7,327 bases of DNA, taken from assembly GCA_030691835.1 (NCBI GenBank), contig JAUYDO010000088.1, forward strand, positions 1-7,327, written 5' to 3'. This DNA comes from Dehalococcoidia bacterium. Lineage in GTDB: Bacteria; Chloroflexota; Dehalococcoidia; Dehalococcoidales; UBA3254. The notes under the pieces were generated by a model. The model saw only the letters and a program-made list of their open reading frames with translations, did no database searches and was not told where the DNA came from. The position numbers and the translations under genes are program-made. Below are positions 4,498-7,327 of this stretch, piece after piece. How positions within the stretch are numbered: the stretch's first letter is position 1; each line of letters starts with the position of its first letter.

Positions 4498-4663
4498 ATA
4501 TGCTCTTGCCGACGGTCAGATTTTGGTAGTCTTATCAAACAAAATGAACAACAAGGTACATTTCTTAATAAAGAAATCAGAGCAAGGGGAATTCAACCCG
4601 GTAAGCGCACAATTTGAGTCGGCTATTTTTAATAATGCGAGGGGCGAGGTGAGGGAGTTCTAA
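4484..4663 (+). CDS. Small hypothetical protein, 59 residues
   Basis: A short open frame from ATG 4484 to TAA 4661-4663. AAGGA at 4471-4475 lies eight bases upstream. The product (opening MQVTKYALADGQILVVLSNK) looks like a compact beta-strand protein followed by FNPVSAQFESAIFNNARGE. It overlaps the previous gene by 14 bases and its stop overlaps the next start (TAATG), a tight arrangement that supports it as a real, coupled gene. No family recognised. Confidence 0.65.
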   Translation: MQVTKYALADGQILVVLSNKMNNKVHFLIKKSEQGEFNPVSAQFESAIFNNARGEVREF

Positions 4664-5223
4664 TGCTTGATTACTTTGAACCTCCAGTAAGGCGCGTGTT
4701 TCCGAAAGGCTGGCGGGAGTGTTCTCACTGGCGGGAGCCCGTCTGCATCGGGAGATATGTTGTTACCTGCTCTTCGTTGTTTGCCGGAGCAAGAGCTAAA
4801 ACTGATGGCTTATTACCGCCACCTGACTACGGTATCTACCTGGCAGGGCAATGGCGAGAAAAGCTCGGGGACATCTGGACTAACGGCGCTACCATCCGTA
4901 GTGTTGCCAGAGAGCGTCCCTACCCAGCGCTGGTAATTGACTGGATGGATATGGCGGGAATGACACCGGATAAATTAAACCAGCTCGTGGAAATCTGCCG
5001 GAACAAAATGCGCCAGGGGAAAAGTATCGACATCGGGTGCTTGCAGGGACATGGGAGGTCAGGAACTTTGCTGGCGTGCCTCTTAGCCCGCGTAGAGCAC
5101 CTATCTGCGGCAAGGGCGGTAGAAGAGGTCCACTGGCGCTATTGCCAGCACGCGGTTGAAACACAGAGCCAGCAAAAGGCGGTTGAGGAATATGTCAGGC
5201 AGTACGGAATACGAAGGAGGTGA
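4663..5223 (+). CDS. Protein-tyrosine/dual-specificity phosphatase-like protein
   Basis: A 186-residue protein carrying the CX5R(S/T) signature CLQGHGRSGT at residues 126-135 (catalytic Cys126, phosphate-binding Arg132, Ser133). The signature follows a beta strand, KSIDIG, as in the PTP/DSP fold, and is followed by the long helix LLACLLARVEHLSAARAVEEV typical of the family. The residue before the Cys is Gly instead of the usual His, which would raise the Cys pKa and may weaken activity. A candidate general acid lies in the VIDWMDMAG segment (Asp93 or Asp96). It could dephosphorylate host proteins, or act on RNA 5' ends as some members do; this cannot be decided here. ATG overlaps the preceding stop; GGAG at 4654-4657 is the ribosome binding site. 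Confidence 0.8.
   Translation: MLDYFEPPVRRVFPKGWRECSHWREPVCIGRYVVTCSSLFAGARAKTDGLLPPPDYGIYLAGQWREKLGDIWTNGATIRSVARERPYPALVIDWMDMAGMTPDKLNQLVEICRNKMRQGKSIDIGCLQGHGRSGTLLACLLARVEHLSAARAVEEVHWRYCQHAVETQSQQKAVEEYVRQYGIRRR
5214..5223 (+). promoter_or_regulatory. Perfect Shine-Dalgarno sequence without a nearby start codon
   Basis: AAGGAGGTGA at 5214-5223 is a full complement to the 16S rRNA tail and includes the phosphatase stop codon. No ATG, GTG or TTG opening a usable frame follows at normal distance; the next credible start is ATG 5294, 70 bases downstream with its own weaker GAGG site (5280-5283). It may be a relic, a ribosome standby site or a regulatory pause. Confidence 0.5.
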
Positions 5224-5293: not shown

Positions 5294-5974
5294 ATGCCAG
5301 TCACGCAGAAAATTGAAATCAATGCACCTAATTTCCAGAGAGCGGTCTTCGGGATCCGCGGGTCGAGTTACCTAGTCATCAACAACTTCGCGCAGAAGGC
5401 GAAACAGCTGATTAAAGAACAGCAGGAGAAAGGTTCCACAGCTAAAAGAGGAGTGAGAGTCGCCAAAGACTTCCAGGCTGATTATGAAGCAGCCAAACAC
5501 GTCTCAACCGAAGGGTGGTGCGGTATTCCTGCGCCGGCTTTCAGGGATGCCATGATAAGTGCTTGCCGGATAGTAGGTTTTCCGATGACACAGGGAAAAC
5601 TGGGGGTCTTCGTCATAGCGGACGGTTTCGAGGTGGACACCGGTAAACCCTTGGTCAAAATAACTAAAGGCGAGCCGCAGTATTTTGAAGCTGAAGTTAG
5701 GCTCCCGACCGGTGTATGTGACTTGAGAGCTCGTCCGCGGTGGGCACCGGGCTGGGAAGCTCAGGTTACCATTGAGTTCGATGCCGATATGATGTCTCTT
5801 AAAGACATCACCAATCTGATGATGCGTGTCGGTAAGCAGGTCGGACTTTGCGAGGGCAGGAATGACAGCAAGAAATCCTGCGGTCAAGGTTGGGGAGCAT
5901 TCGAGCTGGTCGGAGAACCAGCCAAAGAGAAAGAAAAAAAACCAAAGGTGTTTAAGATTCCAAAGGCTTCTTAA
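5294..5974 (+). CDS. Conserved phage protein with RAMP/Cas7-like glycine-rich loop (candidate)
   Basis: A 226-residue soluble protein of a type I recall as widespread but uncharacterised in phages and prophages. Residues 14-40 (FQRAVFGIRGSSYLVINNF, then a basic helix) start the domain; residues 72-100 hold GIPAPAFRDAMISACRIVGF; 123-131 hold KITKGEPQY; 144-154 hold LRARPRWAPGW; 161-190 hold FDADMMSLKDITNLMMRVG leading into the loop GLCEGRNDSKKSCGQGWG at 184-201. The loop type G-x-G-R...G-x-G-W-G near the C-terminus resembles the RNA-binding loop of RAMP proteins (Cas5/Cas6/Cas7), and the strand-rich layout would fit, but this is a fold-level guess. The tail is Lys-rich. ATG 5294 is chosen over upstream in-frame ATGs (5156, 5192) because the conserved region begins there and GAGG lies ten bases before it. 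It sits two genes before the pentamer array. Confidence 0.75.
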   Translation: MPVTQKIEINAPNFQRAVFGIRGSSYLVINNFAQKAKQLIKEQQEKGSTAKRGVRVAKDFQADYEAAKHVSTEGWCGIPAPAFRDAMISACRIVGFPMTQGKLGVFVIADGFEVDTGKPLVKITKGEPQYFEAEVRLPTGVCDLRARPRWAPGWEAQVTIEFDADMMSLKDITNLMMRVGKQVGLCEGRNDSKKSCGQGWGAFELVGEPAKEKEKKPKVFKIPKAS

Positions 5975-6016
5975 TTAGACCTGTATAAAGTTAAAAACAA
6001 GGGAGGAATAAATCAA

Positions 6017-6526
6017 ATGGTCGTAGCCACTAAGAGGAATCCCAAAGTTGTCCCGGTCATCAAGAAAAAGGAATTTGTCCTGGAGCCGACGCGTCAGGAA
6101 ATCCTTCTACCAGAAATGGAGCGTATAAGAAACGAATACGGTGGTGCGCTCCGGGCGCAGGATGTGGTCGCTGATGCGGAGAGCGAAAACTCTCCGCTCC
6201 ACCGGTATTTCACATGGGACGATACTGAAGCTGCCTATCAGCATCGTTTATGGCAAGCCCGCCAACTCATTAGTGCTGTCGTGGTAATGCTCCCTTATGC
6301 CAAGCGGTCCATTACCGCCTACGTGAGTCTCCGGGATGACCGCCGGGTTGGGATATACCGCCCAATCGTGGAAGTTATGTCCAACGCAGATATGCGTAAT
6401 CAATTTCTGGCTGAAGCCCTGGATGACCTTCGTACCTGGGAACGAAAGTACAACCGGCTGGTCGAACTGGTTCCTATCTTCGAGGCTATCAAAAACATCC
6501 GAGGGAAAAACCGCAAGAAGAAATAG
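6017..6526 (+). CDS. Conserved phage protein of unknown function, 169 residues
   Basis: Start supported by GGGAGGA at 6001-6007, nine bases upstream. After a Lys/Arg-rich N-terminus, residues 59-82 hold SPLHRYFTWDDTEAAYQHRL and WQARQL, a signature I recall from many temperate phages of distant hosts, followed by a beta segment (ISAVVVMLP, AYVSLRDDRR, GIYRPIVEVM) and a long helical C-terminus (MRNQFLAEALDDLRTWERKY) ending in a basic KNRKKK tail. There are no catalytic motifs I can name; its basic ends fit nucleic-acid binding. It lies 42 bases after the gene at 5294 and only five bases before the array at 6531, so protein pair and array are likely one transcript and possibly one functional unit. 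Confidence 0.75.
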   Translation: MVVATKRNPKVVPVIKKKEFVLEPTRQEILLPEMERIRNEYGGALRAQDVVADAESENSPLHRYFTWDDTEAAYQHRLWQARQLISAVVVMLPYAKRSITAYVSLRDDRRVGIYRPIVEVMSNADMRNQFLAEALDDLRTWERKYNRLVELVPIFEAIKNIRGKNRKKK

Positions 6527-7260
6527 TCACGGCAGGTATGGCACTGTGAGGTCCGGTTTGGAGATTTGCGGTACGGTACTGTCCGGGATGGTGGCGCAAG
6601 CTGCTTTTAGGTAAGGCAGGTAAGGTGGAGTGGGGTCTGGTACGGTTTTGTTGGGTTGTGTCCGGTATTGTTGGGTCGGGTGTTGCAGGGTATAGCTTGG
6701 TACGTTCCGATAAGGCAAGGCAGGTGAGGAGAGTTGTAGTCTGGTACGGCGCTGTTGGGTTGTGTGTAGTGCGGTAAGGTAAGGCAGGTGCGTTGTGGAA
6801 AAGTACAGTGGGGGTTGGTATGCTATCGTCGGGCAATGTCCGGTCTGGTGAGGTATGGTAAGGCAAGGCAGGTACGGTGCGACGGGGTATAGTTGGGTCG
6901 TGTCCGGTTCGGACGGGTATGGTTATGCAAGGTATGGTGAGATAAGGCAGGTCTGGTCAGGTGATGTGAGGTTTGGTAGCGACGGGCTTGGTATCGACGG
7001 GAGAGGTATGGTGCGGCTAGGCAGGTCAGGTTGGGTATGATAAGGCTGGGTGGCGTAGGGTATGCTAGCGTTTGGATGGATGGGTTCGGTAAGGCAGGTG
7101 TGGTGTGATGAGGTAAGGTAAGGTGTAGTGCGGGAGGTATGGTATGGTGAGGCGCTGTCAAGTAAGGTAGTGTACGGCAAGGCAGGCAAGGTGGGGTGTG
7201 GTAGGGTATGATATGGCAGAGTCTTGCCTGGTGAGGTGAGTTAAGGCAGGTAGGGAGGTC
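6527..7260 (+). repeat. Degenerate pentanucleotide array (GGYNN lattice), G/T-rich
   Basis: An approximately 730-base block of degenerate five-base units, best written G-G-Y-N-N, with two free positions per unit. In 6951-7020 all 14 successive five-base units begin with G, 11 have T or C next and 11 end with G (for example gtctg, gtcag, gtgat). In 6601-6660 I count 26 G, 21 T, 8 A and 5 C, so the strand bias is strong. No protein is convincing: long open frames on the minus strand merely reflect the rarity of stop complements. The GG-N3-GG-N3 spacing also matches a two-layer G-quadruplex pattern in the sense RNA. The block fills exactly the space between the stop of one gene and the ribosome binding site of the next. 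Confidence 0.9.
6531..7251 (+). repeat. Ten GGCAGG punctuation marks dividing the array into nine cassettes
   Basis: GGCAGGT starts at 6531, 6615, 6719, 6783, 6867, 6946, 7020, 7093 and 7245, with GGCAGGC at 7181. Most copies are preceded by AA (AAGGCAGGT). Distances are 84, 104, 64, 84, 79, 74, 73, 88 and 64. Each mark carries a four-base unit gcag where the lattice expects five, so every cassette is 5n+4 long. The 73- and 88-base cassettes each contain one more four-base unit (atgg, ggag). Cassettes thus hold 12 to 20 pentamers. Confidence 0.88.
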
Positions 7261-7264
7261 TTTC

Positions 7265-7327
7265 TTGAACAACCAAGTCTCCGATAGCATCTGGTTGAGC
7301 CCGGACAGAGAAAAATGGGAAAAAGAA
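7265..7327 (+). CDS. Start of a further gene (partial), unknown
   Basis: An open frame beginning with TTG at 7265 runs to the window edge (21 codons; NNQVSDSIWLSPD after the start). GGGAGGT at 7253-7259 lies five bases before it, and codon use returns to normal coding appearance directly after the array. The start codon is inferred; the frame could also begin elsewhere. No family can be named from so little. Confidence 0.5.
   Translation, partial: MNNQVSDSIWLSPDREKWEKE

Follow-up and report, generated by a model that had tools for sequence, protein, structure and literature searches.

The locus described here raises the question of what an intergenic array of G-rich five-base units, placed directly behind a pair of phage genes, is for. 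The window, i.e., the whole stretch of DNA analysed, comprises 7,327 bases and is an entire contig of a 61% complete bacterial assembly. It carries the end of priA and a def gene, followed by a phage-type methyltransferase gene, an HNH-like gene, a phosphatase-like gene, members of the families phrog_4652 and phrog_15946, then the array, and finally the beginning of a further frame. A point of comparison is VIPR (Viral Interference Programmable Repeat), which a preprint of 2026 describes (PMC13142463). Its systems combine Vipr, a small RAMP protein, with an accessory gene and with guide RNAs (vrRNAs) built from 9-16 units, each with invariant GGY and variable NN. We propose that the array probably serves as guide bank for a VIPR system of a prophage, next to a gene for a protein with a predicted Cas7-like fold, a reading to which we assign a probability of roughly 0.87.

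The lattice in the window and its neighbouring genes

The array is a genuine five-base lattice. A sequence-only reading of the window had claimed that the register is kept over about 720 bases, and this was confirmed: the putative vrRNA-type guide array holds it from 6531 to 7258 on the + strand through 148 units (136 of five bases and 12 of four), with a lattice HMM score of 212, compared to at most 23.7 (mean 0.2) for 200 shuffled copies of 6527-7260. The same reading had proposed a lag-5 autocorrelation against shuffled sequence as a check, and the outcome was significant in 300 dinucleotide shuffles of this interval, both for GG pairs (55 observed vs 23.8 expected, sd 4.3, z 7.2) and for single G (z 11.9). 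The lattice that it had called strict stands, but the strictness does not, as exact GGYNN accounts for 81 of the 136 five-base units and NGYNN for 110. Since the HMM was designed after the window had been seen and favours GGY, leaving positions 4 and 5 unmodelled, the base composition seen at positions 1-3 follows in part from the model itself.

Upstream of the array, the vipr-like gene of family phrog_4652 (5294-5974, + strand, 226 aa) encodes a protein with a predicted RAMP (Csm3/Cas7-like) fold. Its structural model matches CRISPR RAMP (Csm3/Cas7) chains, with Foldseek TM-scores at or under 0.5, and both the model and these matches agree with the RRM core and G-loop of the fold; a glycine-rich stretch is conserved. 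At an E-value of 0.001, the protein has 773 relatives. The sequence link to the Vipr of Escherichia phage SUSP1, which we identify as ALH47069 because the 36pp segment reads identically, is weak (hhalign of the profile, E 5.6e-5, probability 66, 59 columns), as is that to 36pp itself (E 0.5). Judged by the fold model, the gene likely encodes the Vipr protein of the system to which the array belongs. The partner gene of family phrog_15946 (6017-6526, + strand, 169 aa) is a conserved neighbour with 60 relatives besides itself and is the probable vipr accessory protein (vap) gene. Its product yielded no Pfam or PADLOC family, no clear match in a fold search, and no match to SUSP1 ALH47068, the likely vap1.

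Searches of the surroundings were largely negative. No sigma-70-like promoter was found in 5900-7327, no tRNA in the window, and no Rfam match at gathering thresholds, while the same Rfam search of 11 loci returned one tRNA and no hammerhead. BLASTN of 5294-7327 against phages gave no match, and BLASTN of the array against its own genome recovered, besides the query, no more than five short matches due to chance. Two further observations concern the upstream genes. The def gene (428-880) overlaps the start of the phage-type methyltransferase gene (877-1413) by four bases, the border between chromosome and phage being indistinct, and the protein of 4663-5223 is dual-specificity-phosphatase-like, whereas its PHROG label, thymidylate synthase, looks wrong.

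Relatives of the locus and controls

Two single-sequence scans, one of genome contigs and one of viral contigs, revealed no relative. We describe 199 loci, all chosen by the two genes, which comprise 4 loci, the best 80 of at least 565, a further 32, the best 80 of at least 561 (one already included), and 4 named phage records; the set represents close relatives on partly overlapping contigs. Both genes were present in 185 of them and a coding-strand lattice in 187, leaving 12 without an array. Among 206 distinct arrays, 201 (the window's included) lie on the coding strand and 5 on the other. The coding-strand arrays are located after phrog_15946 (110), between the genes (47), before phrog_4652 (20), in loci with reversed gene order (13), or where one gene was seen (11), and 195 of them have at least one of the two genes no more than 1 kb away. 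After removal of near-copies and with a score of at least 40, 151 independent arrays remained, all of which belong to a locus with one or both genes and 150 of which are at most 1 kb away, in loci selected by those very genes.

As the loci were fetched via the two genes, the weight of the association rests on the controls and not on co-occurrence alone. When 188 loci were shuffled (2.0 Mb), zero lattice matches resulted, and none was detected in 50,000 bases each of the phages Che8 and Giles. The sequence-only reading had held that recurrence of the pattern at random places in unrelated chromosomes would speak against it; the detector found no match in 383,589 bases of 80 other host contigs. 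In the SUSP1 record (90,743 bases), used as positive control, it reported exactly four arrays, of which three lie to one side of ALH47069/ALH47068 and the fourth to the opposite side, matching the four vrRNAs of the preprint.

Several individual loci deserve mention. In the annotated record of Cyanophage Cy-LDV1, two arrays (L146:7691-7872 and 8474-8630) flank the partner gene, one on each side, and L115:2246-2374 is an opposite-strand lattice of 26 units (score 54) about 5 kb from the gene pair. The array of Gordonia phage UmaThurman (L145:7609-7928), with six GGCA marks, is annotated as protein gene gp40 (7617-7940) but is most likely a guide array. Similarly, gp53 (26802-26966) of Mycobacterium phage Gorge falls within an array (L310:26764-28220), and gp54 of the same phage is a single frame combining the vipr-like and partner proteins, which are separate genes in Saal (gp51 and gp52). 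Three predicted vipr-like proteins (P0080, P0096 and P0174) carry long N-terminal extensions, that of P0080 being rich in R, G and A, which look like translated upstream array following a start called too early.

GGCA marks, modules and target searches

The four-base units had been described as recurring at fixed marks. The units are indeed present (12 of 148), and ten of them are GGCA (6531, 6615, 6719, 6783, 6867, 6946, 7020, 7093, 7181 and 7245), but their distances are not fixed, varying from 64 to 104 bases, with seven of the nine spacings equal to 5n+4. The ten marks delimit nine modules, which are 12-20 units long, all on the + strand and each closed by GGCA: module 1 (6535-6618, 16 units before the mark), module 2 (6619-6722, 20 units), module 3 (6723-6786, 12 units), module 4 (6787-6870, 16 units), module 5 (6871-6949, 15 units), module 6 (6950-7023, 14 units), module 7 (7024-7096, 14 units, one being the 4-mer GGAT), module 8 (7097-7184, 17 units, one being the 4-mer GGGA), and module 9 (7185-7248, 12 units). 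The modules abut, with no space for a tail between them. The claim that NN varies almost freely holds in that all 16 dinucleotides occur in the array, but fails at the last NN before GGCA, which is AA in eight of the nine modules. At modules 2 and 3, the segments 6609-6661 and 6713-6765, which hold the mark and the opening units, agree by 79% over 53 bases and look like the outcome of copying one module and then altering it.

Outside the window, GGCA makes up 712 of the 1,151 four-base units, and successive marks are mostly 8-14 units apart, with a peak at 10, close to the 9-16 repeats given in the preprint. Across the 75 arrays that have four or more modules, 27% of module pairs agree in the NN preceding the mark, against a background of 8.7%, while the other end units examined show an identity of 6-12% between modules of one array, which is about background. 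Because NN identity is raised at the last unit alone, a module appears to consist of a short conserved 3' element and otherwise independent content. We read the module as a guide unit and the GGCA mark as the guide end, with cutting presumably at or near GGCA.

Comparison of close relatives gives an indication of how these arrays change. Four related phages (L055, L062, L065 and L074) differ in whether they carry whole GGCA-ended modules, 49 and 44 bases long, the remainder of the array being retained. Whole five-base unit indels also separate close relatives, as do gaps of 1-4 and 6-8 bases. Substitutions between close pairs, which are not independent, amount to 2.1, 5.8, 8.3, 7.0 and 8.0% at positions 1-5; position 3 is as variable as NN, which speaks against a strong form of the claim that the constant bases are selected. 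The composition of NN is best matched by sense-strand codon positions 1-2 (8,909 units, 467 nats over background), and its position 4 hardly tracks phage GC content (slope 0.20). We do not use the codon fit as proof, since it is equally expected from a plain purine preference at position 4 and the GC slopes match codons poorly.

These observations would also be compatible with a more far-reaching, tentative proposal, which we hold to be possible rather than probable: that the array is a modular and updatable guide bank, in which GGCA-ended cassettes of 5n+4 bases come and go as complete pieces while the register stays intact, forming a phage-borne memory comparable to a CRISPR array, written in a noncontiguous code and operating without Cas1. 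If this were true, a phage lineage could swap its enemy list by whole-module exchange.

Searches for targets of the guides gave a slight excess. With 813 guide pieces against the 2.12 Mb of fetched loci, a skip of one base resulted in 22 matches at a score of at least 32, compared to 3-12 in the controls (the other skips from 0 to 4 and reversed guides); counted by guide, the numbers were 13 and 3-9, respectively. In 24 unit-order shuffles, the guides with strong skip-1 matches averaged 7.8 (sd 2.3, maximum 12), against the 13 observed. An apparent enrichment of matches at codon wobble positions (53/109 vs 27/82) was discarded, as it disappeared against unit-order shuffles (48.6% vs 45.2%, sd 3.4). 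The window's own guides reached a best skip-1 score of 27 in the 80 host contigs, with controls up to 32, and 27 guides of named phages a best skip-1 score of 28 in stretches of eight phage records, at a repeated Che8 site, the skip-3 control also giving 28. A guide piece of twelve units (L070, piece 241) can be fitted to the vipr gene in 11 further loci such that the skipped bases coincide with the wobble positions of codons; we regard it as a lead only, because one of the 24 shuffles had a guide reaching 10 loci. Since these direct tests were indecisive, the skip rule for the present clade rests on published work.

Function of the array and comparison with known systems

A GG every five bases would also suit a protein lattice or a two-tier quadruplex. 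The array, as RNA or DNA, could provide a lattice on which a protein merely counts one GGY per five bases (as a filament seed, a decoy, a TRAP-like ring site, or a two-tier G-quadruplex), with NN as mere spacer. We consider this unlikely. The weak dependence of NN position 4 on phage GC content and the indecisive target tests speak in its favour, but against it stand the modules, in which the 3' end is conserved and NN is otherwise independent, and their gain and loss as wholes. The predicted RAMP fold of the adjoining gene also argues against it, as does the fact that GGY/NN RNAs of this design have been published as guides (PMC13142463). Even less probable is a functionless, degenerate microsatellite generated by strand slippage. 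Whole-unit indels between relatives and the resemblance of modules 2 and 3 are what slippage would leave, but the units are not copies of each other, with every possible NN occurring, the register is kept beside one gene pair in all 151 independent arrays, the distinct arrays lie on the coding strand in 201 of 206 cases, and 383,589 bases of other host contigs contain none. A coding repeat, in which the lattice would encode a low-complexity protein on either strand, is hardly credible despite the gp40 annotation of UmaThurman and open + and - frames in 65 and 86 of the 151 arrays, respectively, because the + frames of the window contain 12-14 stops each and the - frames 2-5 each, and module lengths of 5n+4 and five-base indels shift the frame.

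We thus favour a VIPR guide bank. Transcription of the G-rich strand would give about nine vrRNAs, one per GGCA-ended module, released by cutting at or near GGCA and assembled into RNPs in which successive Vipr subunits are predicted to grip the constant GGY bases; the product of gene 6017-6526 would have an accessory role. The NN pairs would bind double-stranded DNA with one target base skipped per unit (NNxNNx), if the rule of the SUSP1 Vipr extends to this clade, and in this way genes belonging to competing phages or prophages would be repressed. The suggestion that selection maintains the spacing and the constant bases while the variability of NN is put to use is supported by the gene company, the null controls, and the published design of VIPR guides.

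In the published system, NN specifies double-stranded DNA with one target base skipped per unit, as tested by binding, reporter repression and phage defence; the skip code NNxNNx has been shown for the SUSP1 Vipr, and natural guides of two clades aim mostly at a satellite phage and at prophages (PMC13142463). We assign the locus to the same kind of system because its gene pair, with the predicted RAMP fold in one product, fits, as do the GGY/NN array between genes and the phage surroundings. Like the type II system of SUSP1, it is phage-borne, combines a small protein of predicted RAMP fold with one partner gene, and has intergenic alternating GGY/NN units, with arrays on either side of the genes that are found by the same detector. 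At the sequence level, its tandem GGY/NN units agree with the 9-16 units per guide, although the pattern is looser and two of the modules exceed 16 units. It differs in that the SUSP1 Vipr is only distantly similar and ALH47068 is unlike the partner protein here. Moreover, type II guides are RNAs of about 100 nt, each followed by an invariable structured 3' tail (PMC13142463), and those of SUSP1 are separate RNAs, whereas the array described here is continuous and GGCA-ended, with no separate tail. As the modules abut and only the last NN and GGCA are kept, we do not file the locus as type II; we read it as a VIPR member that is non-type II by the tail, and leave its type open. The preprint distinguishes seven VIPR types, of which some have staggered arrays (PMC13142463). 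These staggered types would place many guides in one continuous stretch and are possibly the same class. A literature search by the full name of VIPR returned only this preprint, and further searches listed no other paper on the system.

VIPR is only months old in print, and the current study adds a tail-less array composed of GGCA-ended modules, each of them conserved at its 3' end, which are gained and lost as wholes between related phages. We do not claim these features as unreported, since module marks and turnover may be contained in the preprint's supplement. The locus and its relatives, with their tail-less continuous arrays, form a large clade that includes named, cultured Gordonia and Mycobacterium phages, in which arrays are partly annotated as proteins.

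Class 1 CRISPR-Cas was considered and rejected, given that no near-identical repeat/spacer array and no Cas match among the window proteins scanned were present. The window contains no CRISPR-like repeats, its direct repeats of at least 20 bases being the lattice itself (60-84% alike) and one pair 71% alike and 2.9 kb apart; Cas searches of the scanned window proteins with Pfam and NCBIfam, and of four proteins with PADLOC, found none. The likeness lies in the predicted fold, shared with the class 1 RAMPs (Csm3/Cas7, types III and VII). In Cas7 complexes, RAMPs oligomerise on the guide RNA with periodic contact (PMC13142463), and class 1 CRISPR RAMPs leave a break at every sixth base, in contrast to the five-base lattice found here. 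Whole-module gain and loss would, in addition, allow guide acquisition by phages to be studied directly, a step for which CRISPR uses Cas1.
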